Part shown: one piece after another, positions 1,420 through 14,501 of the stretch
Layout of the letters: each line of letters begins with the position of its first letter
Numbering within the stretch: the first letter of the stretch is position 1
Notes under the pieces: generated by a model
Database searches by the model: none
The model's input: only the letters and a program-made list of their open reading frames with translations
Told to the model about the DNA's origin: nothing
Program-made: the position numbers and the translations under genes
NCBI RefSeq assembly: GCF_018614195.1
Contig: NZ_JAGGOT010000091.1
Location: 1-64,000, forward strand
Direction: 5' to 3'
Source: Streptomyces sp. ISL-43
Lineage (GTDB): Bacteria > Actinomycetota > Actinomycetes > Streptomycetales > Streptomycetaceae
DNA length: 64,000 nucleotides

Positions 1420-2853
1420 TCAGCTGGGAGCCTCGGCGCCCTTGCGGGCGTAGAACCACCAGCACACCACCAGGCAGGTGGCGTAGAAGCCGATGAACAT
1501 CCACAGCGCGTTGGTGACGGCCATGGCCGCGAACATCGCGGGGATGAAGAAGAAGCCGTAGGCCGCGATGGCCGAGGAGAAGCCGGTGACGGCTCCCGCC
1601 TCCATCTCCGACTGCTTCAGCGCCGCGGCCTGCGCCTCGGGACCCCTGCCCTCGGCCTCCTTCATGTGCTGGTCCCGGAAGATCACCGGAATCTGCCGGA
1701 AGGTCGAGCCGTTGCCCAGGCCGGAGAAGGCGAAGGCGACCAGGAAGCCGATGAAGAAGGCCCAGAAGCTGCCGCTGTCGCCGCTGTGGGGCAGCGCGAA
1801 GATCACCACGACCAGGGCGGCGGCCATGCCGACGAAGGACAGCATCGTGACCCTGGCCCCGCCGATCTTGTCGGAGAGCCAGCCGCCTCCCCAGCGCATG
1901 ATCGCGCCGACGAAGGGGCCCATCCAGGCATAGGTGGTGGCCTGGTAGCCCTGCGCCTCGAAGTTGTTCTTGATCAGCAGCGGCAGGCCGGCGGCGAACC
2001 CGATGAAGGACCCGAAGGTGCCGACGTAGAGCCAGGTCATCAGCCAGTTGTGCTTGCGCTTGAAGATGATCTTCTGCTGACTGAAGGGGGCCGCGGCCAC
2101 CTTGAGGTCGTTCATCAAGAACCACGCGAGCAGGGCCATGATGACCAGCAGCGGCACCCACAGGAAGGCGCCGTTCTGCAGCCAGATGTCGGTGTTCTCC
2201 TTCGCGTCGTGCTGCGGGCCGCCCGCCGGAGCGCCCAGCACGGCCGCCGTGACGACCAGCGGGGCGATCAGCTGGACCACGCTCACGCCGAGGTTGCCGA
2301 GGCCGCCGTTGAGGCCGTTGGCACTGCCCTTCTCCCGCTTCGGGAAGAAGAAGCCGATGTTGGCCATGGAGGAGGCGAAGTTCGCGCCGCCGATGCCGCA
2401 GACGGCCGCGATCAGCGCCAGCTCCCAGTACGGGGTGCCGGTGTCCTGGAGCGCGAAGCCCAGCCACAGCATCGGCGCGATCAGGATGATCGTGCTGAAA
2501 GCGGTGAACTTCCGCTCGCCGAAGATCGGCCCGATGAAGGTGTACAGGATCCGGAAGGTGCCGCCGGTGATCCCAGGGATGGCGGTCAGCCAGAACAGCT
2601 GCGACTTCGAGAAGCCGAAGCCGACGTCGTTGAGCTTGACCACGGTCACCGACCAGACCTGCCAGACCACGAAGCCGAGCATCAGGGCGGGGATCGAGAC
2701 CCAGAGGTTGCGCTGGGCGACACGGCGGCCGGTGGCCTGCCAGAAACTCTCGTCCTCGGGCCGCCAGTCGGCGATGGTGGCGCCGGGCTTGTAGGTCTCC
2801 GCCCGGTGACTGCGGGGCACCGACGGAGTCGGCGTGGGTATCGACATGGTCAT
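1420..2853 (-). CDS. narK: NarK-family nitrate/nitrite transporter (copy 1)
   Basis: Major-facilitator protein of 477 residues with about 12 membrane segments. It shows the nitrate/nitrite porter signatures GxxGGxNF in the first half (GIGGANFASSMANIGFFFPK) and GGxGNLG (NGGLGNLGVSVVQL). NarK proteins bring nitrate in with protons or exchange it for nitrite. The start at 2853 overlaps the preceding stop (ATGA); a second ATG at 2847 has better spacing from AAGGA and is an equal alternative. It is the last large gene of the leftward nitrate reductase operon, which supports a role supplying nitrate to that enzyme. A closely related second copy lies at 11472-12893. Confidence 0.93.
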   Translation of the reverse strand: MTMSIPTPTPSVPRSHRAETYKPGATIADWRPEDESFWQATGRRVAQRNLWVSIPALMLGFVVWQVWSVTVVKLNDVGFGFSKSQLFWLTAIPGITGGTFRILYTFIGPIFGERKFTAFSTIILIAPMLWLGFALQDTGTPYWELALIAAVCGIGGANFASSMANIGFFFPKREKGSANGLNGGLGNLGVSVVQLIAPLVVTAAVLGAPAGGPQHDAKENTDIWLQNGAFLWVPLLVIMALLAWFLMNDLKVAAAPFSQQKIIFKRKHNWLMTWLYVGTFGSFIGFAAGLPLLIKNNFEAQGYQATTYAWMGPFVGAIMRWGGGWLSDKIGGARVTMLSFVGMAAALVVVIFALPHSGDSGSFWAFFIGFLVAFAFSGLGNGSTFRQIPVIFRDQHMKEAEGRGPEAQAAALKQSEMEAGAVTGFSSAIAAYGFFFIPAMFAAMAVTNALWMFIGFYATCLVVCWWFYARKGAEAPS

Positions 2854-3218
2854 CGGTCCTTCGGGTCGAGGAGCCACAGTCCGATCACGGCGAGGAAGGA
2901 GAGGATCAGGAATCCCGCTCCCCACCAGGCCGTGCCGGTGTTTCCCTTCATCCACTCGTTGACGGTCACGGTGAGCGCCCAGAGCTGGCCGATCACGACC
3001 GTGAGCGCCAGGGCCAGCCGCGCGTTGAGCCTCGAGGAGCGCTCGGGCTCCTGCTCGGTGCCGGCTCCGGGACCCGGGCCCGTGTGCCGGATCCGGGGGT
3101 CCCCGTACCCGCTGGTGGAGCGGATCTGGGGGTACCGCTCGCGCACCGGGCGGTTGAGCCGGGGCTCGGCACTGCCCGGGTGGTACTCCGGGCGGGGGGG
3201 CAGCGGCGTCTCACTCAC
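2850..3218 (-). CDS. small two-helix membrane protein of the nitrate operon
   Basis: A 122-residue protein with a polar, Pro/Arg-rich N-terminal 60 residues and two predicted membrane helices (about 68-88 and 97-116), ending in LDPKDR. GTG at 3218 overlaps the stop of the Rieske gene (GTGA), and its own stop overlaps the start of narK (ATGA), so it is translationally locked into the operon. No family motif is recognised. Its position between the Rieske subunit and the transporter suggests an accessory or assembly subunit of the membrane reductase, but this is inference from context only. Confidence 0.75.
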   Translation of the reverse strand: MSETPLPPRPEYHPGSAEPRLNRPVRERYPQIRSTSGYGDPRIRHTGPGPGAGTEQEPERSSRLNARLALALTVVIGQLWALTVTVNEWMKGNTGTAWWGAGFLILSFLAVIGLWLLDPKDR

Positions 3219-3886
3219 GTGGGCCTCCGTTCGGGGGCTGCGGGGCGGCCCGTACCGGGGCAGCCCACGCTGGCGGCCTCCTCCGGGTGGGTGTCGCTGA
3301 ACTGCCGGCAGAGCGCTTCCTTGGCCGGCTCTCCCGACCGGGCGGTGGCGACGGCCCAGACGCTGCCGTCGGCCTGCTCGGTCAGGAAGATCCTGGGCAG
3401 CGGGCGCGGCGGGGGGCCGGCCGTCACCTCGCCGGTGCGGGCGTCGAAGACCCCCTCGTGGCAGGGGCAGTACAGCTCGCCGTCGGCCCCCCGGTCCTCG
3501 CGCCACAGGACACCGCAGGCCAGGTGGGTGCAGACGGCGGAGTAGCCCACGAGGGAGCCGTCCGCGAGCCGCACGGCCAGGGCCCGGTCGTCCTCGCCGG
3601 GGAAGCGGAAGGCGACGGACCGGCCGGGTACGAGCTCGTCGGCGACCTTCTTGGGCGCCGGCAGGGCCTCGCTGTCGCCGTGCCGGTGCAGGATGCCGGC
3701 GGCGACTCCGACACCGCCGATGGCCAGGCCGCCGGAGACGGTGGCGACGATCCGGAGGTAGTCGCGCCGGGTGGTGAGGGAGTCGGCGCTGATCCGGTCG
3801 CGCAGCTGCTCGACGGCGGCGTCGTCGGCCGCGCCGTCGTCCGGGCCCGGGCCCGGGTGCGGAGGAGGCTGTTCGGTGACGCTCAT
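3215..3886 (-). CDS. Rieske [2Fe-2S] protein with Tat-like N-terminus
   Basis: A 223-residue Rieske iron-sulfur protein. Cluster ligands are Cys119/His121 (CTHLACG) and Cys140/His143 (CPCH), with Cys124 and Cys142 placed to form the stabilising disulfide. Residues 39-64 (TTRRDYLRIVATVSGG and a following Gly/Ala hydrophobic stretch) look like a twin-arginine signal-anchor, as in actinobacterial QcrA, so the cluster domain is predicted to be outside the membrane. The start overlaps the ferredoxin stop (ATGA) and the end overlaps the next start (GTGA). It presumably relays electrons within a quinol-linked complex. The external location is hard to reconcile with its signal-less ferredoxin and Mo partners, so either the topology guess or the electron path is unusual. 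Confidence 0.88.
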   Translation of the reverse strand: MSVTEQPPPHPGPGPDDGAADDAAVEQLRDRISADSLTTRRDYLRIVATVSGGLAIGGVGVAAGILHRHGDSEALPAPKKVADELVPGRSVAFRFPGEDDRALAVRLADGSLVGYSAVCTHLACGVLWREDRGADGELYCPCHEGVFDARTGEVTAGPPPRPLPRIFLTEQADGSVWAVATARSGEPAKEALCRQFSDTHPEEAASVGCPGTGRPAAPERRPT

Positions 3887-4482
3887 CGGACATCCACTCC
3901 GTTGATCTCGACGACGGGCAGGCCGCCCGGGACGGGCCACTGGACCTTGTCGGCGGGGACGACCATGGCCACGCCGGTCTGGACGACGACGTCGCCGAAG
4001 ACGAAGGAGTCGGCGACCTGAACTCCGGGGCGCTCCGCCTGGAGCTCTTCGAGGGTTCCGTAGAAGAGGGCGCCGGTCGGGCAGACGGTCGCGCACATGG
4101 GGGCGAGGCCATAGGCGGTGCGGTCGTAGCAGAGGTTGCACTTCATCTGCAGCTTCGCCTGGAGGTCGATCTTCGGGACGCCGAAGGGGCAGGCGTTGAC
4201 GCAGTTGGAACACCCGATGCAGCGGGTGGTGTCGGCCTGCTGGACCACTCCGTCGGCGGTCACCAGGATCGCGTCGGCGGGACAGACCTCGGCGCAGGGC
4301 GCGACCGGGTCCTCGCAGTGCATGCAGACGCTCGGCAGGGAGGCGACGGACATGCCGGGGTCGGTGTAGTCCAGGTGGATCATCGATTTGCCGCGGTGCG
4401 AGTCGCACTCGCGGCAGGCCGAGACACAGGCCTGGCAGCCGATGCAGCGACCCGGGTCGATGAAGATCGTGCGGCCCATCAT
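3883..4482 (-). CDS. 4Fe-4S ferredoxin subunit (NrfC/DmsB-like)
   Basis: A 199-residue electron-transfer subunit with four Cys clusters: CIGCQACVSAC (about residue 14), CMHCEDPVAPCAEVC (53), CIGCSNCVNAC (88) and CNLC...CATVC (115-134). This is the pattern of the four-[4Fe-4S] iron-sulfur subunits of DMSO-reductase-family enzymes. No Tat or Sec signal is visible, so it should be cytoplasmic. It starts 6 bases after the stop of the molybdopterin subunit and overlaps the Rieske start. It most likely wires the catalytic subunit to the membrane cytochrome b. ATG at 4482 is used; ATG at 4479 is an alternative. Confidence 0.92.
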   Translation of the reverse strand: MMGRTIFIDPGRCIGCQACVSACRECDSHRGKSMIHLDYTDPGMSVASLPSVCMHCEDPVAPCAEVCPADAILVTADGVVQQADTTRCIGCSNCVNACPFGVPKIDLQAKLQMKCNLCYDRTAYGLAPMCATVCPTGALFYGTLEELQAERPGVQVADSFVFGDVVVQTGVAMVVPADKVQWPVPGGLPVVEINGVDVR

Positions 4483-4488
4483 GGCGGG

Positions 4489-6819
4489 TCAGCTCCTCTC
4501 CGACGTGCCACGGCCCTGCGGGGACGTGGGGGGCAGGGGGTCGGTGCGGGAGACCTGGGTCTCCGGATAGGCCTCGCGGCCCGGTGCGGTGGGCGGCGCC
4601 GGGACCTCGTCGACCCGCTCGGCGGCCTCGATCCGGGCCGCGCAGACCTTGTACTCGGGGATCTTCGAGCGGGGGTCGAGCGCGTCGATGGTCAGGGCGT
4701 TCGCAGCCGTCGGGACGGGCCAGTGGTACGGGATGAAGACGGTGTCCGGGCGGATGGCCTCGGTGACCAACGCCGGGAACACCTCGCTGCCCCGGCGGGT
4801 GACCACCCGCACCGGATCACCGTTGCGGAAGCCGTGCGAGGGGTGGACCTCCACCCAGGGCCGGGGGGTCTGCTCGACGAGCGCGCCCAGACGGCGGGTC
4901 TGGTTGCCGGAGAGGAAGTGCGCGACGGTGCGGCCGGTGGTGAGGGAGAGGGGGTACTCCTCGGAGTACGGGTCCATCGGCGCGTGCCACTCGACGACCT
5001 GCATGTGGACCTTCCCGTCGGGGTGGAAGGTCCGGCCGCCCTCGAACAGGCGGGGTGTGCCCGGGTGGTCGGTGGAGGGGCACGGCCACATGATGCCGCC
5101 GGTCTCCTCCAGGCGTTCGTAGGTGATGCCGTAGTAGTCGTTGACCGTGCCGGCGGAGGCGACGCGCAGTTCCTCGAACACCTCCCGGGAGCCGGCGAAG
5201 TCGAACTTGTCGCCGACGCCGAGGCGGCGGGCGAGCTCGCACATCACCCAGGTGTCGGTGCGGACCCCGGCGGGCGGCTCCTGCGCCTTGTTGTGCTTGA
5301 CGACGCGGGCCTCCGTGTTGGCCATGACGCCCTCGTCCTCGGCCCAGACGGTGACGGGGAAGACCACGTGCGCGTTGTTCGCGGTCTCGGAGAGGAAGAA
5401 GTCGAACTGCGCGTGGAACTCTAGGGTGTCGTAGCCCTCTTTGACCGCCCCGTAGTTGGGGAGCGAGACGAAGGGGTTGTTGCAGATGCCGATCAGGCCG
5501 CGGATCTCACTGCGCTGCATCTGCCAGACCATCTCCATCATGGAGGTGCCGGCGGGCGGGAGTTCGGACTCCTCGATACCCCAGATCCGGCAGATCTGGC
5601 GGCGGTGCTCCTCGTTCATGATGGAGCGGCCACCGGGCAGGAGGTCGGCCTTCTGACCGTGCTCGCGGCCGCCCTGCCCGTTGCCCTGGCCGGTGATGGT
5701 GCCGTAGCCGGCGCCGGGCTTGCCGAGATTTCCGGTGGCCACGCACATGTTGATGATGGACAGGCAGTTCTCGACGCCCTGCGAGTGGTGCTCGACCCCG
5801 CGCGCGTGGAAGGCCATGGCCTTGTCCGCGCCGGCGAACATCCGGGCGACCTGGACGATCTGCGAGGCGGGGACGCCGCAGATCTCCGCGGACCGGGCGG
5901 GCGGATAGTCCTTGACGGTCTTCTTGACCTCGTCCCAGCCGGTGGTGTGGGCGGCGAGGTACGCCTCGTCGGTCAGGCCCTCGTCGACGATCACGTGGAG
6001 CACGGCGTTGAAGAAGGCGGAGTCGGTGCCCGGCTTGAGGGCGACGTGGACGTCGGCGGTGCGCGCGATGGCTGTCTCGCGCGGGTCGATCACGATCAGC
6101 GAGGCCCCCCGGTCCCGGGCGCCCCAGACGTACTGGGTCATCACGGGGAAGCACTCCCCCACGTTCGACCCGGCGATCAGCAGGCAGTCGGTGAGGAGGA
6201 TGTCGGAGAAGGGGTTGGCGGCCCGGTCGATGCCGAAGGCGAGCTTGTTGGCGCCGGCGGCGCTGACCATGCACAGGCGGCCGTTGTAGTCGACGTGCCG
6301 GGTCTTGAGGGCGACCCGGCCGAACTTGCCCACCAGGTAGGTCTTCTCGGAGTAGAGGCTGGCCCCGCCGAGCAGCCCGAAGGCGTCGTTGCCGTGGGCA
6401 TCCTGGATGCGGCGTACCTCGGCGACGGTGTGGTCGAGGGCCTCGTCCCAGGAGACCTCCTTGAACTCCTCGTCGCGCGAGCGCCGCATCAGCGGCGCGG
6501 TCAGCCGGTCGGGGTGGTTGACCTGCTGGTAGGCGTTGATGCCCTTGGGGCACAGCCGCATCCGGTTGATGTCGTGGTTGCGCGGCTCGACGCCGAAGAC
6601 CTTGCCGCCCTTGTCGACGCGCAGGTACATCCCGCACTGCACGCCGCAGAAGCAGCAGTGGGTGGGGACGAGGGTCTCGCCGTTCTGGTCGGCGTGCCAT
6701 TTGTCGGCGGGGATGCCGCCGGCGTCGCGGAAGTTGCGGGTGCCGGGCGGGGCGATGGAGGGGTCGATGGATACGGCTACGGGCCGCGACGCGGCCTTGG
6801 CGGGGTCCGTCGCGGTCAC
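4489..6819 (-). CDS. molybdopterin oxidoreductase, probable Nas-type nitrate reductase
   Basis: Catalytic subunit of 776 residues in the DMSO-reductase superfamily. An N-terminal [4Fe-4S] site is formed by Cys55, Cys58, Cys62 (CCFCGVQC) and Cys90 (RLCPKG). The Mo ligand is predicted to be Cys183 in GRLCMVSAAG; the Cys-Met context is that of NasA/NarB/NapA nitrate reductases, whereas formate dehydrogenases have Sec/Cys-His. A C-terminal molydop-binding domain follows (LTTGRTVAHFLSGNQTRR). There is no Tat signal, so it is cytoplasmic. GTG at 6819 overlaps the cytochrome b stop (GTGA). Nitrate as substrate is supported by two NarK genes and a nitrite reductase nearby. Formate, made by the adjacent PFL, is the main alternative. 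Confidence 0.85.
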   Translation of the reverse strand: MTATDPAKAASRPVAVSIDPSIAPPGTRNFRDAGGIPADKWHADQNGETLVPTHCCFCGVQCGMYLRVDKGGKVFGVEPRNHDINRMRLCPKGINAYQQVNHPDRLTAPLMRRSRDEEFKEVSWDEALDHTVAEVRRIQDAHGNDAFGLLGGASLYSEKTYLVGKFGRVALKTRHVDYNGRLCMVSAAGANKLAFGIDRAANPFSDILLTDCLLIAGSNVGECFPVMTQYVWGARDRGASLIVIDPRETAIARTADVHVALKPGTDSAFFNAVLHVIVDEGLTDEAYLAAHTTGWDEVKKTVKDYPPARSAEICGVPASQIVQVARMFAGADKAMAFHARGVEHHSQGVENCLSIINMCVATGNLGKPGAGYGTITGQGNGQGGREHGQKADLLPGGRSIMNEEHRRQICRIWGIEESELPPAGTSMMEMVWQMQRSEIRGLIGICNNPFVSLPNYGAVKEGYDTLEFHAQFDFFLSETANNAHVVFPVTVWAEDEGVMANTEARVVKHNKAQEPPAGVRTDTWVMCELARRLGVGDKFDFAGSREVFEELRVASAGTVNDYYGITYERLEETGGIMWPCPSTDHPGTPRLFEGGRTFHPDGKVHMQVVEWHAPMDPYSEEYPLSLTTGRTVAHFLSGNQTRRLGALVEQTPRPWVEVHPSHGFRNGDPVRVVTRRGSEVFPALVTEAIRPDTVFIPYHWPVPTAANALTIDALDPRSKIPEYKVCAARIEAAERVDEVPAPPTAPGREAYPETQVSRTDPLPPTSPQGRGTSERS

Positions 6820-7910
6820 TTGAAGCCCTTCTTGACGTGGGTCAGGTAGGCGCTGCCTCGCAGGACGCGCTTGCAGCGCGGGCAGTACTCGGCCCAGGCG
6901 TCGAAGTCGAGCTTCAGGTCCTTCATCGTGCCGCGCAGGTTCTCCACGTAGGGGGCGGTGTCGATGGGTTCGGCGCAGCGCTTGCAGACGAAGATCTGGT
7001 CGTCCTGGCGGGCCGTGTACTTGAAGAGCTGCATGCCGACGGCGGCCGGGCGCTGGACGATGTGGAAGAACTTCCCGAACGGGATGTAGATGAGGGTGAA
7101 CACCACCGACACCATGTGCAGGATCGCGAGGAACTCGTATCCGCCGCCGTGCAGGAAGATCGAGGAGAAGGTCAGCAGCAGACCGGTCACCGAGATCACG
7201 ATCAGGCAGATCAGCGGCAGCAGATCGTAGGCGAAGCGCTGGCCGGTCATGGCCCCGCGGTCCTTCATCCGCCGCCACAGGAAGTACGAGGCGCCTGGGA
7301 TGACGAGCACGGCGGCGATGTCCAGGCCGTGGAACATCAGCCAGCCCAGGATGTTGAGGGAGTCGAAGCCGAGGACCTTGATGCCCCAGATCCGCATCTC
7401 GTATCCGGGCCCGGTCGCACTGTCCCCGGTGAAGGTGAACCAGCCCCAGGTCAGCGGGAAGGTGATCGCCGCGGCGAGGATGCAGCCCCAGAAGATGAGC
7501 TGGTGGGCGATCCAGCGGGAGCGGGAGCGGGCGCCGAGGAACTTCTGGAAGCCGAGGTAGGTGGCGATCATCTTCGGCAGGGCGGTGGGTGCCTTGCGGA
7601 AGTTGTCGGCCGAGAAGAAGCTGCCGAAGCCCTTCTTGAAGAGGCGGCGCGCGCCGGGGGCCGAGACCCACACCGTGTAGCGGTAGGCCACGCCGAACGC
7701 CAGGAAGACGGTGGCGACGGCGTACGGCAGCAGGGCGGAGTCGAAGTCCCGCAGCAGCCGGCTGCCGAGCACGATCGCGATGATGAGGAGGAGCGAGACG
7801 ACGGTGCCGGCCAGGGTGGCCCGTGCGGTGACGGACCGCCCGGCCGGCGGCGAGGTCTCGGGCGCCGGTGGAGGCGGCGCGGCGTCGATGACATCTGAGG
7901 GCTCGGACAC
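6816..7910 (-). CDS. NarI/DsrM-like membrane cytochrome b subunit
   Basis: A 364-residue membrane protein with about five or six helices. Helix-associated histidines (WIAHQL, MFHGLD, SIFLHGGG, AILHMVSV, KFFHIVQRP) and the IYIPFGKFFHI ending resemble the di-heme b gamma subunits NarI/DsrM/HdrE that oxidise menaquinol. Unlike NarI, the tail carries two CxxC pairs (CKRC and CPRC) that could bind zinc or an Fe-S centre. It begins with GTG at 7910 and is the first gene of the leftward operon, so the promoter should lie in 7911-8049. It would anchor the signal-less Mo and ferredoxin subunits and feed them electrons. Transporter-like annotations for such proteins would be misleading. Confidence 0.8.
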   Translation of the reverse strand: MSEPSDVIDAAPPPPAPETSPPAGRSVTARATLAGTVVSLLLIIAIVLGSRLLRDFDSALLPYAVATVFLAFGVAYRYTVWVSAPGARRLFKKGFGSFFSADNFRKAPTALPKMIATYLGFQKFLGARSRSRWIAHQLIFWGCILAAAITFPLTWGWFTFTGDSATGPGYEMRIWGIKVLGFDSLNILGWLMFHGLDIAAVLVIPGASYFLWRRMKDRGAMTGQRFAYDLLPLICLIVISVTGLLLTFSSIFLHGGGYEFLAILHMVSVVFTLIYIPFGKFFHIVQRPAAVGMQLFKYTARQDDQIFVCKRCAEPIDTAPYVENLRGTMKDLKLDFDAWAEYCPRCKRVLRGSAYLTHVKKGFK

Positions 7911-8049: not shown

Positions 8050-8877
8050 TCAGACCGCGTTCAGCCCCTGCGCGGCGAACACCGCCTTCGCCTCCTCGAC
8101 CTGCGCGGCGGTCGGCGACGGCGTGTCGTGGAGGGTGAACTTCATGTCGAGCGCCTCCCACTTGCTCTCACCCAGCTTGTGGAAGGGCAGTACGTCGACC
8201 CGCGAGACGTTGCCGAGGGTTCCCGCGAAGGCGGCGACGCCCTCGACGTTCTCCCTGGCGTCGGTCAGCCCGGGCACCAGCACGAAGCGCAGGTGCACCT
8301 CCTTGCCGAGGCCGGCGAGGCGGCGGGCGAAGTCCAGGGTCGGCTGGAGCGGGCGGCCGGTCACCTTCTTGTACGTATCGCGGTCCCAGGACTTGATGTC
8401 CAGCAGCACCAGGTCCACATCGCGCAGCAGCGCGTCGGTGGCGCGGGCCCCGAGGAAGCCGGAGGTGTCCAGGGCGGTGTGCAGCCCGAGGTCGTTCTTC
8501 ATCCGGTGCAGCAGCTCGCCCGCGAAGACGGGCTGGAGCAGCGGCTCGCCTCCGGAGATGGTGGCCCCGCCCCCGGAGGCGGAGATGAACTTGGTGTACT
8601 TGCGGGCCTCGGCGATGACGTCGTCCGCCGAGGTGCGCTTGCCGTTGCGCATCCGCATGGTGTCGGGGTTGTGGCAGTAGAGGCAGGTCAGCGGGCAGCC
8701 GGACAGGAAGGTGACGAACCGGGTCCCGGGGCCGTCGACCCCGGTGGACAGGTCCCAGGAATGCACCGTGCCCTCGCTCGGCCGCTGGGTCGCGGCGGCG
8801 GCGGGCGTCCGGCCGGCGCTGACGCTGATCGCGTTGGCGTGGCCGACGGGAAGGCTCGTACCGAAGAGGACGGTCAT
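8050..8877 (-). CDS. pflA: pyruvate formate-lyase activating enzyme
   Basis: Radical-SAM glycyl-radical activase of 275 residues. The [4Fe-4S]/SAM motif CxxxCxxC is Cys61, Cys65, Cys68 (CPLTCLYCHNP), followed by the SAM-binding ISGGEPLLQ stretch and the DTSGF, DLVLLDIKSWD and LVPGLTD signatures of PflA. It abstracts hydrogen from the essential glycine of PFL in the reduced cytoplasm. ATG at 8877 is chosen because the family-like body begins there (MTVLFGTSLPVG); it has a roughly 35-residue N-terminal extension before the usual start. It lies 110 bases downstream of pflB in the same direction, so they should form one operon. Confidence 0.95.
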   Translation of the reverse strand: MTVLFGTSLPVGHANAISVSAGRTPAAAATQRPSEGTVHSWDLSTGVDGPGTRFVTFLSGCPLTCLYCHNPDTMRMRNGKRTSADDVIAEARKYTKFISASGGGATISGGEPLLQPVFAGELLHRMKNDLGLHTALDTSGFLGARATDALLRDVDLVLLDIKSWDRDTYKKVTGRPLQPTLDFARRLAGLGKEVHLRFVLVPGLTDARENVEGVAAFAGTLGNVSRVDVLPFHKLGESKWEALDMKFTLHDTPSPTAAQVEEAKAVFAAQGLNAV

Positions 8878-8987: not shown

Positions 8988-11258
8988 TCAGAGAGAGCCG
9001 TGGAAGGTGCGGTTCAGCACGTCGAGCTGTTGGGCGCGCGTGAGGCGGACGAAGTTCACCGCGTAACCGCTGACGCGGATGGTCAGCTGCGGGTACTTCT
9101 CCGGGTGCTCCATGGCGTCCATGAGCGTGTCGCGGTTGAGCACGTTCACGTTCATGTGGAAGCCGTCGACCGCCATGTAGCCGTCGAGGACGCCCGCCAG
9201 GTTCTTGATCCGCTCCTCGGAGGTGCGGCCCAGGCCGTCGGGGGTGACGGTGTTGGTCAGCGAGATGCCGTCCTCGGCGTCCTCGTACGGGAGCTTCGCG
9301 ACCGACAGCGCCGAGGTGACGTAGCCGTGGGTGTCGCGGCCGTTCATCGGGTTGGCGCCCGGGGAGAACGGCTCGCCGGCGCGGCGGCCGTCCGGCGTGT
9401 TGCCGGTCTTCTTGCCGTAGACGACGTTGGAGGTGATGGTCAGCACCGACTGGGTGTGCTCGGCGTCGCGGTAGGTCGGGTGCTTGCGCACCTTCCTCAT
9501 GAACTCCTCGACGAGCCAGACGGCGATCGAGTCGACCCGGTCGTCGTTGTTGCCGAAGGCCGGGTAGTCGCCCTCGATGGTGTAGTCGGTGACGAGGCCG
9601 GTCTCGTCGCGCACGGCGGTGACCTTGGCGTACTTGATGGCGGACAGCGAGTCGGCTGCGACCGAGAGGCCGGCGATGCCGCAGGCCATGGTGCGGCGCA
9701 CGTCGCGGTCGTGGAGCGCCATCTCGATGCGCTCGTAGGCGTACTTGTCGTGCATGTAGTGGATGACGTTCAGGGCGTGGACGTAGGTGTCGGCGAGCCA
9801 CTCCATCTGCTCGTCGAACTTGGCCATGACCTCGTCGTAGTCGAGCACCTCGGAGGTGATCGCACCGGTGGACGGGCCGACCTGGGCGCCGGACTTCTCA
9901 TCACGGCCGCCGTTGATCCCGTAGAGCAGGGTCTTGGCGACGTTCACCCGGGCGCCGAAGTACTGCATCTGCTTGCCGACCGGCATCGCCGAGACGCAGC
10001 AGGCGATGGCGGTGTCGTCGCCGAAGCGCGGGCGCATCAGCTCGTCCGACTCGTACTGCACGGAGGAGGTGTCGATCGAGACCCGGGCACAGAACTCCTT
10101 GAAGCCCTGCGGCAGCTGCGGCGACCAGAAGACCGTCATGTTCGGCTCGGGGGCGGGGCCGAGGTTGTAGAGGGTGTGGAGGTAGCGGAAGGAGGTCTTG
10201 GTGACCAGCGGACGGCCGTCCTCGCCCATGCCCGCGATCGACTCGGTGACCCAGGTGGGGTCGCCCGAGAAGAGCTCGTCGTACTCCGGGGTGCGCAGGA
10301 AGCGGACGATGCGGAGCTTGATGATGAAGTCGTCGACCAGCTCCTGAGCCTGCTCCTCGGTGAGGAGGCCGGCCTCGATGTCGCGCTGGAGGTAGACGTC
10401 GATGAAGGTGGAGGTGCGGCCGAGCGACATGGCCGCGCCGTTCTGCTCCTTCACGGCGGCCAGGTACGCGAAGTACAGCCACTGGATGGCCTCCCGCCCA
10501 GTCTCGGCCGGGCCGGAGATGTCGTGCCCGTAGGAGGCGGCCATCGCCTTGAGCTCGGCGAGGGCGCGGATCTGCTCGGAGAGCTCCTCGCGCAGGCGGA
10601 TCGTCTCCTCCAGTGAACGCCTTCCCGCGGGCAGGGAGTTGATCTCCTCCTTCTCCTCCTTCTTGAAGGCGATGAGGCGGTCGACGCCGTAGAGAGCCAC
10701 GCGGCGGTAGTCGCCGATGATGCGGCCGCGGCCGTACGCGTCGGGCAGGCCGGTCACGATGCCGGCCTTGCGGGCGGCGCGGATGTCGGGGGTGTAGGCG
10801 TCGAAGACACCGGCGTTGTGGGTCTTGCGGTACTCCGTGAAGACCTTCTCCAGGTCGTCGGAGACCGGGTAGCCGTAGGTCTCCAGGGCGCCGGCGACCA
10901 TGCGCCAGCCGCCGTAGGGCATGATCGCGCGCTTGAGCGGGGCGTCCGTCTGGAGGCCGACGATCAGGTCCTTGTCGCGGTCGATGTAACCGGGGGCGTG
11001 GGCGGTGATCGACGACGGGATGTCGTACGCGACGTCGTAGACACCCTTCTCGCGCTCCTCGGGGAACTTGTCCGTGATCGCCTTCCACACGGCCGTGGTG
11101 CGCTCGGTGGGACCGGCGAGGAAGGCGTCGTCACCCTCGTACGGCGTGTAGTTCTGCTGGATGAAGTCGCGGACGTCGATGGCATCACGCCACAGACCGC
11201 CCTTGAAGCCCTTCCGGGCCTCGCCGTTCTTCGTGGTTTCCGCAGGGGTGGCAGTCAT
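8988..11258 (-). CDS. pflB: pyruvate formate-lyase (formate acetyltransferase)
   Basis: Glycyl-radical enzyme of 756 residues, close to the 760 of E. coli PflB. It converts pyruvate plus CoA to acetyl-CoA plus formate without oxygen. The catalytic cysteine pair is Cys420-Cys421 ([15 protein letters not shown]) and the radical glycine is Gly731 (RVSGYAV), both in the expected places, so the gene looks functional. ATG at 11258 is preferred (GGAAGG 8 bases upstream, normal codon use from there); ATG at 11297 also has an AAAAGG and would add 13 residues of untypical codons. PFL is destroyed by oxygen and is surprising in an aerobic mycelial genus. Rex-type and DevR-type sites lie upstream. Confidence 0.96.
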
Positions 11259-11343
11259 CGCCCGCACCTTCCGAGTCGCCTCATTGCTTGTATCCATTGC
11301 ACGCCTTTTGATCGATCATTTGGCGCCGCGTTGGTCCTGAGCT

Positions 11344-11359
11344 GGGGCCCGAAAGTCCC
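11344..11359 (-). promoter_or_regulatory. DevR/DosR-like hypoxia box upstream of pflB
   Basis: Read on the minus strand the site is GGGACTTTCGGGCCCC, 86 bases upstream of the pflB start. The left half matches the mycobacterial DosR/DevR dormancy box (GGGACTWWAGTCCC) exactly; the right half has three mismatches, as many natural boxes do. Streptomyces possesses DevR homologues (OsdR) with similar sites. Assignment is by eye and moderate. Confidence 0.45.
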
Positions 11360-11432: not shown

Positions 11433-11452
11433 CTTGTGAAGACATTCACAAG
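11433..11452 (-). promoter_or_regulatory. Rex-type redox operator upstream of pflB
   Basis: The sequence CTTGTGAAGACATTCACAAG is a perfect dyad with 8-bp arms and a 4-base spacer. It matches the consensus TTGTGAA-N4-TTCACAA of the NADH-sensing repressor Rex at every fixed position. It lies about 175 bases upstream of the pflB start and just beyond the end of the second narK gene. Rex represses pfl and other fermentation or respiration genes when NADH/NAD is low. The same sequence also fits the TGTGA-N6-TCACA Crp/FNR pattern, so a Crp-family regulator is the alternative. Confidence 0.7.
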
Positions 11453-11471: not shown

Positions 11472-12893
11472 CTAGCTGGGCGCCTCGGCGCCGGGGCGGG
11501 CGTAGAACCACCAGGCCACGACGACGCAGCTGGCGTAGAAGGCGACGAAGCCCCACATCGCGCTGGTCACGGCGAAGTTGGCGAACATCGCCGGGATGAA
11601 GAAGAAGCCGTAGGCGGCGATGGCCGCGGTGAAGCCGGTCACCGCGCCCGACTCGATCTCGGCCTGCTTGAGCGCCTTCGCGTACTGCGGGGTGCCCTCC
11701 GTCAGGCCCGTGAGGTGCCGGCCGCGGAAGATGACCGGGATCTGGCGGAAGGTCGAGCCGTTGCCGATGCCCGAGAAGAAGAACGCCGACAGGAAGCAGA
11801 AGAAGAAGCCGTAGAAGGAGCCGGTGTCGGAGCCGGCCGGCAGGAAGGTGATCACGCCGATGATCGACGCGCCCATGCCCACGAAGGACAGGATCGTCAC
11901 CCGCGCACCGCCGAACTTGTCGGCGATCCAGCCGCCGGCCCAGCGGGCCAGCGCGCCGAGCGCCGGGCCCATCCAGGCGTAGGTGGCCACGGAGTACGCC
12001 GGAAAGGTGGTCTTGATCAGCAGCGGCAGCGCCGCGGCGAAGCCGATGAAGGAGCCGAAGGTGCCGACGTAGAGCCAGGTCATCACCCAGTTGTGCTTGC
12101 GCTTGAAGATGACCTTCTGCTGGCTGAAGGGGGTGGAGGCGACCTTCAGGTCGTTCTGGCCGAACCAGGCGACGGCCGCGAGCACGATCAGGACCGGGAC
12201 CCAGACGAAGGCGGCGTTCTGGAGGTAGATCTCCGAGCCGTTCGCCTTCTGCCGGCCCGCGCCGATCGCCAGGACCGAGGAGGTGATCAGGATCGGCGTG
12301 AGGAGCTGGACCACCGAGACGCCCAGGTTGCCCAGGCCGCCGTTGATGCCGGTCGCGGAGCCCTTCTCCTGCTTCGGGTAGAAGAAGCCGATGTTGGCCA
12401 GCGAGGAGGAGAAGTTCGCGCCGCCGATGCCACAGAGCGCGGCGATGGCGATCATCGTGCCGTAGGGGGTGTCCGGGTTCTGCACCGCGAAGCCCAGCCA
12501 CAGCAGCGGCACGATCAGCACGACGGTGGAGATCGCCGTGAAGCGGCGCTGGCCGATCATCGGGCCGATGAAGGTGTAGAGGATGCGGGCTGTGCCGCCC
12601 GTGATGCCGGGGACGGCCGTCAGCCAGAACAGCTGCGACTGGGAGAAGTCGAAACCGACGTCCTTGAGGTTGGTCGCCGTGATGCTCCAGACCTGCCAGA
12701 CCACGAAGGCCACCAGCAGGGCCGGCACCGCGATCCACAGGTTGCGGGTGGCGACCTTCTTGCCGGTGGACTGCCAGAAGGACGGGTCCTCCGGCGTCCA
12801 CTCCGTGATCGTGCGGCCCGGGCGGTATTGCGCCGGATCGGGCGCCTGTACGCGCCCGCTTGGCGGGCGCACGTCCTGCTTGGCGGAACTCAT
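11472..12893 (-). CDS. narK: NarK-family nitrate/nitrite transporter (copy 2)
   Basis: MFS nitrate/nitrite porter of 473 residues, strongly similar along its whole length to the copy at 1420-2853 (same TIxEWxPEDPSFWQ-type N-terminus, GIGGANFSSSLANIGFFYPK and NGGLGNLGVSVVQLLTP). The start at 12893 has AGGA six bases upstream; an in-frame ATG at 12983 would cross the hairpin terminator and is rejected. It lies between the nitrite reductase gene and pflB, all leftward. Having two paralogues 9 kb apart suggests one serves nitrate uptake and the other nitrite export or nitrate/nitrite exchange, but which is which cannot be read from sequence. Confidence 0.93.
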   Translation of the reverse strand: MSSAKQDVRPPSGRVQAPDPAQYRPGRTITEWTPEDPSFWQSTGKKVATRNLWIAVPALLVAFVVWQVWSITATNLKDVGFDFSQSQLFWLTAVPGITGGTARILYTFIGPMIGQRRFTAISTVVLIVPLLWLGFAVQNPDTPYGTMIAIAALCGIGGANFSSSLANIGFFYPKQEKGSATGINGGLGNLGVSVVQLLTPILITSSVLAIGAGRQKANGSEIYLQNAAFVWVPVLIVLAAVAWFGQNDLKVASTPFSQQKVIFKRKHNWVMTWLYVGTFGSFIGFAAALPLLIKTTFPAYSVATYAWMGPALGALARWAGGWIADKFGGARVTILSFVGMGASIIGVITFLPAGSDTGSFYGFFFCFLSAFFFSGIGNGSTFRQIPVIFRGRHLTGLTEGTPQYAKALKQAEIESGAVTGFTAAIAAYGFFFIPAMFANFAVTSAMWGFVAFYASCVVVAWWFYARPGAEAPS

Positions 12894-12974: not shown

Positions 12975-13025
12975 CCAACGCACTGTGGGCGACGGGACAA
13001 GGTCCCGTCGCCCACAGTGCGTTGG
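12975..13025. terminator. strong hairpin between nirBD and narK copy 2
   Basis: A perfect 23-bp inverted repeat with a 5-base loop (arms 12975-12997 and 13003-13025) lies 18 bases beyond the nitrite reductase stop. It should terminate that transcript and separate it from narK. The arms begin ccaacgcactgtggg. Confidence 0.85.
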
Positions 13026-13043: not shown

Positions 13044-14501
13044 CTACGGCCGGAGCTCCACCAGCGGCAGGGACACCTCGGGGTCGTCCAGGCAGACGCC
13101 GGTGCGCAGGTCGAACTCCTGCTTGTGCATCGGCGAGGCCACGACGGGCACCCCGGCGCGCGAGCCCATGATGCCGTTGGCGATGACGTCGGCGCCCGAG
13201 AAGGGATCCCGGTTGCCGACGGCGTAGACCTCGCCCGCGCGGTCCTTGAAGACCGCGGCCCGCGTGCCGTCCGCGAGCACCGCCGTACGCCCGCGGCCCG
13301 GCTCCAGCGCGTCCGCCGCCGCCCGCGACGCCGTCCCGAGGTCCACGGTGCCGAAGTCCACGGTCCCGAAGTCCACGGTCCCGAAGCGTTCCAGCGCCAC
13401 CGGGTCCTCCAGGACCGCGGCCCACTCGTCCTCGTAGGCGCTCACGTGGCGTTCCATCTGCGCCTCCAGCTCCGCGCAGATGCCGAGCGAGTCCTCGATC
13501 AGGACCTCCCTGAGGTGCTCCGGCCCGGCCGTGCTCCCGCCGAGCCGCTCCATCCAGGCCGACGTGCGCTCCAGGCGCTCACCGGTGCGGATGTAGTACA
13601 TGAGGAACCGGTCGGTCAGCGCGAAGAGTTCGGCCGTGCTCAGGTCCGAGGCCAGCAGGTCGGCGTGGCGCGGGGTCGCGCCGCCGTTGCCGCTGACGTA
13701 CAGAGTCCAGCCGTTGGCGGTGGCGATGACGCCGATGTCCTTGCCCCGCGCCTCCGCGCACTCGCGCAGGCACCCGGAGACCCCACCCTTGAACTTGTGC
13801 GGGGTGCGCAGACCCCGGTAGCGCAGCTCCAGGTCCATGGCGAGCTGGATCGAGTCGCCCTGGCCGAAGCGGCAGAAGCGGGCGCCCACACAGGACTTCA
13901 CCGCGCGCAGGGACTTCCCGTACGCCTGCCCGGACTCGAATCCGGCGCCGCCGAGCCGCCGCCAGATGTCGGGCAGCTGTTCCTTGCGGACGCCGAAGAG
14001 CCCGATCCGCTGCGCACCGGTGATCTTCGTGTAGAGGCCGTAGTCCCGGGCCGCCTCGCCGAGCGCGATGACCTGCTCGGCCGTGATCTCGCCGCCCGCG
14101 ACGCGCGGGACGACCGAATAGGTGCCGTCCTTCTGGAGGTTGGCGAGGAAGAGGTCGTTGGAGTCCTGCAGGGCCGCCTGCTCGCCGGCCAGGATGTGCC
14201 CGATGCCGAGGTCGGGGGCGAGGGTGCCGAGCACGTTCGCGACGACGGGCCTGCAGACGGCGCAGCCCTCGCCGCCCTCGCCGTAAGCCTCCAGCAGCTC
14301 GCTGAAGCCGCGGATGCGCTCGGTGCGGATCTTCTCGTAGATCTCCGCCCGGGTCAGGGCGAAGTGCTCGCACAGCCCGCGCGGCTTCTCGATGCCCGCC
14401 GCGGCCAGTTCGGCGTCGAGCACCGCGGCACGAAGGGGTTTCAACTGCTGGCCCTCGAAGTCGGGTCCCCCTGGGGACGGGGACGGCGACCTCTTCGCCA
14501 C
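13044..14501 (-). CDS. siroheme nitrite reductase: C-terminal NirB fused to NirD, no NAD(P)H/FAD domain
   Basis: The 485-residue protein matches the back half of NirB joined to NirD. Residues 42-95 are the second BFD-like domain of NirB (LCEHFALTRAEIYEKI...GCAVCRP; Cys44, 80, 83). Residues 100-340 are the nitrite/sulfite reductase ferredoxin-like and siroheme domains with all four [4Fe-4S]-siroheme ligands (Cys204, Cys210, Cys244, Cys248). Residues about 405-485 are a NirD-like domain lacking Rieske ligands, as in NirD. The roughly 450-residue FAD/NAD(P)H half of NirB is absent, so electrons must come from elsewhere, for example a ferredoxin. The linker holds a threefold FGTVD repeat (373-390). 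GTG at 14501 has GGAGG upstream. It should reduce nitrite to ammonium. Confidence 0.88.
   Translation of the reverse strand: MAKRSPSPSPGGPDFEGQQLKPLRAAVLDAELAAAGIEKPRGLCEHFALTRAEIYEKIRTERIRGFSELLEAYGEGGEGCAVCRPVVANVLGTLAPDLGIGHILAGEQAALQDSNDLFLANLQKDGTYSVVPRVAGGEITAEQVIALGEAARDYGLYTKITGAQRIGLFGVRKEQLPDIWRRLGGAGFESGQAYGKSLRAVKSCVGARFCRFGQGDSIQLAMDLELRYRGLRTPHKFKGGVSGCLRECAEARGKDIGVIATANGWTLYVSGNGGATPRHADLLASDLSTAELFALTDRFLMYYIRTGERLERTSAWMERLGGSTAGPEHLREVLIEDSLGICAELEAQMERHVSAYEDEWAAVLEDPVALERFGTVDFGTVDFGTVDLGTASRAAADALEPGRGRTAVLADGTRAAVFKDRAGEVYAVGNRDPFSGADVIANGIMGSRAGVPVVASPMHKQEFDLRTGVCLDDPEVSLPLVELRP

Follow-up and report, generated by a model that had tools for sequence, protein, structure and literature searches.

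Assimilatory nitrate reductases of the Nas type are soluble enzymes that receive their electrons from NADH or ferredoxin, and in the respiratory enzyme NarGHI the molybdenum (Mo) of the catalytic subunit NarG is held by an aspartate residue. Here we describe a six-gene operon with features of both in Streptomyces sp. ISL-43, located within a stretch of 64,000 nt that was analysed as a whole (hereafter the window: positions 1 to 64,000 of the forward strand of contig NZ_JAGGOT010000091.1, assembly GCF_018614195.1). With the NasC/NasA enzymes of Bacillus and actinobacteria the operon shares the catalytic Cys-Met pair, the motif TGQGNGQGGREHG, an N-terminal [4Fe-4S] motif and an adjoining position in the phylogenetic tree; unlike them, it adds a membrane cytochrome b, a four-cluster ferredoxin and a putatively exported Rieske protein, and its catalytic subunits form a clade of their own (support 99/98). 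With NarGHI it has in common a NarI-like cytochrome b, a four-cluster ferredoxin, NarK and a presumably cytoplasmic catalytic site. However, its catalytic subunit is not NarG, which reads YCD at the ligand place in our alignment, NarJ is not among its six genes, to which the search for it extended, and it adds a Rieske protein and a DUF6755 protein, while its cytochrome has one helix more and a C-terminal tail with four cysteines (Cys4 tail).

Rieske proteins have been described next to other nitrate reductases. Haloarchaeal nar operons pair the nitrate reductase genes narGH with genes for a Rieske protein (narB) and a cytochrome b (narC) (PMC2483277), so that a Rieske subunit cannot be called foreign to respiratory nitrate reductases, as had been assumed in the original prediction for this locus, which was made from the sequence alone. 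For these haloarchaeal enzymes, a Q-cycle has been proposed (PMC2483277; PMC4683180). Their catalytic subunit is, however, of the NarG type and faces outward, and the narC product is a cytochrome b of 486 residues, whereas the cytochrome of our operon is NarI-like (PMC2483277). A screen of NapA operons, which required NapA homology and a catalytic subunit with a twin-arginine signal and comprised 251 sequences, lists the same types of partner proteins (PMC12769810); no signal for twin-arginine translocation (Tat) was recognised on our Mo subunit. In Bacillus bataviensis, nasC is linked to a 2Fe-2S Rieske-type protein, but this set is called assimilatory, is described with a hybrid Fe-S protein, and a membrane cytochrome is not mentioned in the available text (PMC3475470). 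Nar1 of S. coelicolor is likewise a respiratory enzyme of a streptomycete but belongs to the NarGHI type (PMC7931247).

Among the papers listed by full-text searches of the open-access literature, a scope that leaves subscription journals largely outside, none presents the six-gene set in its title or abstract. The parts are of known kinds; their combination, with a clade of its own and a wide distribution, appears to be new. From sequence and structure models, we consider it likely that the operon encodes a menaquinol-oxidising, membrane-linked nitrate reductase with a cytoplasmic, Nas-derived catalytic subunit, serving respiration at low oxygen and representing a lineage distinct from Nar and Nap.

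The operon and its catalytic subunit

The ISL-43 genome comprises 8.87 Mb in 127 contigs, and the named relatives closest at this locus are Streptomyces. The six genes are located on the minus strand from 7910 down to 1420 in the order CytB, Mo subunit, Fd4, Rieske, DUF6755 and NarK. They had been predicted as six overlapping genes; the number is right, and at four of the five junctions the adjoining genes share 4 nt (GTGA or ATGA), but the Mo subunit and Fd4 genes are separated by a gap of 6 nt.

The Mo subunit (776 aa; 4489-6819, minus strand) is a NasC-type molybdopterin nitrate reductase by family, residues and tree. It contains three molybdopterin domains according to Pfam and one N-terminal [4Fe-4S] motif. 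Its active site carries Cys183-Met184 together with TGQGNGQGGREHG, in agreement with the Nas-type Cys-Met context that had been noticed for the 776-residue protein. The combination of R-[LM]-C-M and TGQ[GA]NGQGGRE is present in all 25 Mo subunits of this system that were aligned with references, and it is shared by the NasC-type enzymes, the ordinary Nas of the same genome included. At the active site of formate dehydrogenases (FDH), a selenocysteine or cysteine is followed by His, and an Arg completes the set. The Mo subunit has Met and Thr in the places of this His and Arg. Among the seven in-frame reference rows labelled FDH, Arg stands at the Thr position in all seven and His follows the Cys in six; a Paraburkholderia row with the same label is a Nas-type enzyme by its residues. 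These reference labels (NASq, FDHq) were assigned from model hits and in-frame TGA codons.

Among the NCBIfam models, the NasC model NF047855 matched the Mo subunit with 774.7 bits and the Fdh-alpha model with 577.1 bits; the corresponding values for the ordinary Nas of the genome are 802 and 541 bits. A tree of 52 proteins was computed with support given as bootstrap/SH-like approximate likelihood ratio test (SH-aLRT); it leaves aside cyanobacterial NarB and a NarG outgroup, as well as the loci L048 (contig end), L055 (Mo subunit in two frames) and L044, L047 and L053 (near copies). The 22 rows of the system, from the window, 18 other actinobacterial loci and three Deinococcus loci, constitute one clade (99/98), which joins 11 NasC-type Nas rows from Actinomycetota, Paenibacillus and Deinococcus at 100/100. 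The FDH rows form a separate clade (100/100), and Nap, the proteobacterial Nas and two other actinobacterial enzymes share another one (100/98). The nearest neighbour outside is the long-branch row NASq_L171 (99/93). Phylogeny had been named as a check of the prediction, and it places the Mo subunit with NasC/NasA and outside FDH and Nap.

With regard to the periplasmic Nap enzymes, no Tat signal was recognised on the Mo subunit and the Nap rows lie in another branch. The N-termini of the Mo subunits lack a strongly hydrophobic stretch, reaching a maximum of 1.35 over 15 residues versus 1.51-1.99 in the Rieske proteins of the same operons. NarG (TIGR01580) had no match in the ISL-43 genome at E 1e-150, the best weak match being at 1.1e-7, and a separate, soluble-type Nas is encoded on contig 55. 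Residues, model scores and tree support the assignment of the Mo subunit to the NasC/NasA type, as a lineage apart from formate dehydrogenases and Nap. Its setting in the operon speaks against a soluble enzyme supplied by ferredoxin or NADH.

Membrane and electron-transfer subunits

CytB (364 aa; 6816-7910, minus strand) had no family match in the Pfam scan. Its weak NCBIfam matches to QmoC (39 bits), TmcC (32 bits) and HmcE (20 bits) are far under the respective cut-offs, and the operon partners differ from those of the QmoC/DsrM/TmcC/HmcE cytochromes. The AlphaFold2 model, built from a 24-row alignment with a mean predicted local distance difference test score (pLDDT) of 83.5, contains six long hydrophobic helices that are predicted to span the membrane. 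When this model was compared with known structures by VIA-align, rows 1-7 were NarI chains of NarGHI entries with Z scores of 10.0-10.2, 170-184 aligned residues and root-mean-square deviations of 5.0-5.3; then came mycobacterial EtfD with a Z of 9.6, and the following row dropped to 6.7. Among 27 CytB sequences, H136, H265 and H283 are conserved in every one and H194 in 25. In a profile alignment by hhalign, H265 and H283 fall opposite residues 187 and 205 of NarI, which are heme ligands there. The best structural match for CytB is hence NarI of E. coli, and CytB is predicted to be a di-heme cytochrome b of this fold with four His ligands, as had been foreseen for a NarI-like subunit. Past the last helix and outside the NarI-aligned part follows a tail with four cysteines (C309xxC312 and C343PxC346), found in all 27 sequences. 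Because of the positively charged loops, the C-terminus is expected on the inner side of the membrane.

Fd4 (199 aa; 3883-4482, minus strand) is a 4Fe-4S electron-transfer subunit resembling DmsB and FDH-beta in Pfam and NCBIfam. Its 17 cysteines are all invariant in a 22-row alignment and would suffice for four [4Fe-4S] clusters. The Rieske protein (223 aa; 3215-3886, minus strand; PF00355), with a predicted [2Fe-2S] cluster, begins with a twin-arginine signal-anchor that reads RRDYLR in the window. Both the RR motif and the ligands CxHLxC...CPCH are present in 26/26 homologues, and a hydrophobic stretch follows the RR motif. Since the Mo N-termini show nothing comparable, the Rieske protein would be located outside and the Mo subunit inside the cell. 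The DUF6755 protein (122 aa; 2850-3218, minus strand) scored 29.8 bits against PF20540, above the gathering cut-off of 27, and has two hydrophobic segments by hydropathy; it is probably an assembly or anchor subunit. NarK (477 aa; 1420-2853, minus strand) belongs to the nitrate/nitrite transporter family of the major facilitator superfamily (MFS), exceeding the TIGR00886 cut-off of 311.7 with 327.7 bits. A four-cluster ferredoxin, a Rieske protein, a two-helix protein and NarK, all named in the prediction, were thus recovered by family models, cysteine counts and hydropathy.

Distribution, neighbouring genes and control signals

Of the 396 Actinomycetota genomes searched, ISL-43 included, 23 contain CytB; 20 of these lie outside the genus and represent nine family codes. 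The other 22 genomes provide 23 CytB places (loci L041-L063), one genome contributing two. The order CytB-Mo-Fd4-Rieske is present in 22 of these 23 loci, and in the remaining one the contig ends inside the Mo gene. At L055, one of the 22, the Mo and Fd4 genes are each split across frames, by sequencing error or decay. DUF6755 was detected in 14 of the 23, twice at a distance of kilobases; it was undetected in the distant loci L058-L063 and in L051, and two further contigs stop short of it. NarK-like genes occur at 8 of the 23 loci, in several of them with an identity of just 24-29%. Ten open reading frames next to distant loci include few nitrogen genes: L052 has a NirA-family gene together with a NarK-like gene beside the operon, and L045 has a double-GAF histidine kinase whose matches include NarX/NarQ-like ones and others.

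For the genus itself, we used the best 80 of 392 relatives from named genomes, every one a Streptomyces, with S. griseus (locus L084) and S. virginiae among them; L041 and L042 look identical in contig to L079 and L083 of this collection. The order CytB-Mo-Fd4-Rieske was found in 79/80 and that including DUF6755 in 78/80, the misses being on contigs of about 6 kb. In the same collection, pflA is upstream in 39/80, NarK downstream in 14/80 and a NirB-C/NirD gene beside the operon in 14/80. The same order exists on plasmids of Deinococcus psychrotolerans, D. wulumuqiensis and Deinococcus sp. D7000 (L149, L191, L192), where the set is followed by a NarK or MFS gene and, further downstream, by GAF or BTAD regulators. 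DUF6755 is annotated on two of these plasmids and a hypothetical protein takes its place on the third; the cytochrome is annotated there as 'MFS transporter' and the Mo subunit as 'molybdopterin oxidoreductase family protein'. Because the order recurs across actinobacterial, Streptomyces and Deinococcus loci, the gene set is not a chance assembly. The comparison of gene order, suggested along with the prediction, has accordingly extended the set to nine further Actinomycetota family codes, many Streptomyces and Deinococcus.

The joint occurrence with other enzymes was evaluated in 200 Streptomyces genomes, with NarG counted above its cut-off. CytB was present in 52 genomes (four as partial or split matches), NarG in 67 and pyruvate formate-lyase (pfl) in 63. 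CytB and NarG were found together in six genomes where 17.4 were expected (Fisher p 6.6e-5, uncorrected for relatedness). In 17 of the 20 genomes having both pfl and CytB, the two are within 10 kb of each other, about 1 kb apart. For pfl and NarG, 33 joint occurrences compare with 21.1 expected (p 1.9e-4), and in 8 of the 33 they are within 40 kb. Either nitrate reductase, CytB-linked or NarG, was present in 48 of the 63 genomes with pfl versus 65 of the 137 others (p 1.3e-4). Such a pattern would be expected of two nitrate reductases that can replace each other and both accompany one fermentation enzyme, although it is an association and not proof.

The genes directly upstream of the operon are on the same strand. 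PflA, the pyruvate formate-lyase activating enzyme (8050-8877; TIGR02493, over cut-off), is separated from CytB by 139 nt and from pfl by 110 nt. Pfl (8988-11258; TIGR01255, 1193 bits, over cut-off) has a further possible in-frame start at 11297. Beyond it follow a second NarK-family gene (11472-12893, minus strand), which with 308.0 bits remained slightly below the TIGR00886 cut-off of 311.7, and a NirB-C/NirD fusion (13044-14501, minus strand) with the Pfam domains NIR_SIR, NIR_SIR_ferr and Rieske_2. Here the C-terminal siroheme half of NirB, its FAD/NAD(P)H portion missing, is joined to a NirD-like Rieske domain; the NirB match covers model positions 458-794 only. By its domains, the fusion protein is a candidate for the next step, from nitrite to ammonium. 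Between this gene and the second narK there is a perfect palindrome with arms of 24 nt and a loop of 3 nt (12975-13025), a candidate terminator or regulator site. On the other side of the operon, a gene for the mechanosensitive channel MscL is located at 590-1129 on the plus strand.

The Rex operator is an 18 bp sequence with the consensus TTGTGAANNNNTTCACAA, and in Staphylococcus aureus both pfl and narG are reported to be under Rex control (PMC5355995). Positions 11434-11451 form a perfect copy of TTGTGAANNNNTTCACAA, which precedes the pfl start at 11258 by 175 nt; CytB itself begins 3.5 kb downstream. Rex binding is predicted here: shuffled sequences contained no such site, and perfect sites occurred in 3 of 2000 random windows of 350 nt from the same loci. 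The genome encodes one Rex-type DNA-binding domain and has two perfect Rex operators, one upstream of pfl and the other on contig 34 (L199, 1501-1518). From the end of the latter it is 271 nt to the first codon matched in an adhE-like frame. The part of this frame that was read scored 654 bits against the model of bifunctional AdhE, and an upstream ATG of the frame is out of phase with the match; on the other side of the operator, a divergent hydrolase-like gene begins at a distance of 84 nt. The two operators, at pfl and at the adhE-like frame, suggest a fermentation programme in a Streptomyces. The pfl start could be read in 35 Streptomyces loci, and a perfect Rex site is present in 19 of these. 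The motif GGGACTTTCGGGCCC at 11345-11359 (minus strand), also upstream of pfl, is partly conserved among these 35 upstream regions; it resembles the hypoxia box of DevR/OsdR and is a candidate for a second regulatory motif.

Proposed function and alternatives

If the operon encodes a respiratory complex as proposed, the NarI-like cytochrome would oxidise menaquinol on its outer side. The electrons would pass from an outer heme (H194/H265) to an inner heme (H136/H283), then through the four Fd4 clusters and finally via the [4Fe-4S] cluster of the Mo subunit to the Mo centre, where nitrate would be reduced to nitrite in the cytoplasm. NarK may import nitrate and export nitrite. Quinol oxidation outside combined with nitrate reduction inside would generate a proton-motive force by a redox loop like that of NarGHI. 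The Tat-exported Rieske protein might serve outside as a second electron entry or as a partner of the quinol site, perhaps towards the cytochrome bcc complex, and DUF6755 may aid anchoring or assembly. A nitrate reductase connected to bcc would not be the first, since S. coelicolor Nar1 is described as requiring the bcc-aa3 supercomplex, parts of which are co-purified with the enzyme (PMC7931247). As the operon lies behind pfl-pflA and the Rex site in the lineage of the window, it may be transcribed together with pfl, and its expression would be expected once oxygen is low and NADH increases. The NarI-like cytochrome, the Rieske protein with a Tat signal, the pfl/Rex context and the small number of genomes that also have NarG all fit a respiratory role, and the idea of an assimilatory-type core within a quinol-linked complex, put forward in the original prediction, is supported by these sequence data.

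A more far-reaching version, which we consider rather unlikely, would add the complex to Nar and Nap as a third type of respiratory nitrate reductase. Here, the Tat-exported Rieske protein would be obligatory for electron delivery, either through bifurcated menaquinol oxidation together with the NarI-like cytochrome or from bcc, thereby gaining Q-cycle protons, and the Cys4 tail would act as a further carrier toward the Mo subunit.

Several observations weigh against the proposed respiratory nitrate reductase. The Mo subunit remains under the NF047855 cut-off, with 774.7 of 1100 bits; this is no argument against its NasC membership, because 0/149 Actinomycetota genomes yielded a hit above that cut-off and the ordinary Nas scores 802 bits. 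An RR-x-hydrophobic motif is present in 6 of 23 Mo N-termini. A Foldseek search with the CytB model gave GPCR-like (G protein-coupled receptor) rows, none of them at E 0.001 or better; the NarI match came from VIA-align only, with a Z of about 10 that helical bundles can reach by chance, and so the likeness to NarI rests on the gap in Z to the next rows and on the His pattern. The hhalign comparison of CytB with E. coli NarI extends over 93 columns at a probability of 64.6%, and H194 is replaced by Arg in two of the 27 sequences (L046, L056). With regard to context, 41/80 Streptomyces loci, some on short contigs, have no pflA next to the operon. In 16 of the 35 pfl loci the Rex site is missing, with nothing under six mismatches. 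Among 44 loci without a usable pfl, from which L090 was excluded as it starts at a contig end, 42 have at least five mismatches upstream of CytB; the other two have a site with one and a site with three mismatches, respectively. In the 200 Streptomyces genomes, pfl and CytB are not associated genome-wide (20 versus 16.4 expected, p 0.23), the association of pfl with either reductase is mostly carried by NarG, and the statistic for the exclusion of NarG is uncorrected for relatedness. The absence of overlap between CytB (23) and NarG (46) among the 396 Actinomycetota genomes is weak, since 2.7 were expected.

One alternative is a membrane-tethered assimilatory nitrate reductase that is fed by menaquinol and delivers nitrite to the NirB/NirD-like neighbour for nitrogen nutrition, without respiration. 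The catalytic subunit from the NasC clade would suit such an enzyme, as would the NirB-C/NirD gene and narK close by and the NirA-family and NarK-like genes that adjoin the operon in L052. However, a soluble-type Nas is already present in the genome (contig 55), the operon is placed behind pfl and a Rex operator, its cytochrome is NarI-like and it rarely occurs together with NarG. The NirB-C/NirD gene, moreover, accompanies the operon in just 14 of the best 80 of 392 loci. We regard this alternative as improbable.

The main alternative for the enzyme activity, a quinone-linked formate dehydrogenase oxidising the formate produced by the neighbouring pyruvate formate-lyase, was rejected on the basis of the active-site residues and the tree and is very improbable. 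Although pfl and pflA adjoin the operon in the lineage of the window, the operon ends with NarK. Fdh-alpha is indeed the second-best NCBIfam model (577 bits), but the ordinary Nas scores alike against it (541 bits). The top three sequence matches in the PDB are formate dehydrogenases and the fourth is NapA; against this stand the replacement of the His and Arg of formate dehydrogenases by Met and Thr, and the FDH rows in a clade apart with full support (100/100). That the complex works in the opposite direction and oxidises nitrite, sending electrons outward through the Rieske protein to cytochrome c, is hardly credible: an outside Rieske protein with CxHLxC...CPCH could pass electrons outward and NarK-type carriers are annotated for both nitrate and nitrite, but the pfl/Rex context indicates low oxygen and Nas-type subunits are known as reductases.

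If the proposed respiratory nitrate reductase is correct, an assimilatory catalytic core became part of a quinol-linked respiratory complex. About a quarter of Streptomyces species (52/200 sampled), some distant actinobacteria and some Deinococcus plasmids would then carry a nitrate-respiring enzyme that surveys based on NarG and NapA would miss, and nitrate respiration, pyruvate formate-lyase and Rex control would be linked in a genus that is usually called aerobic.

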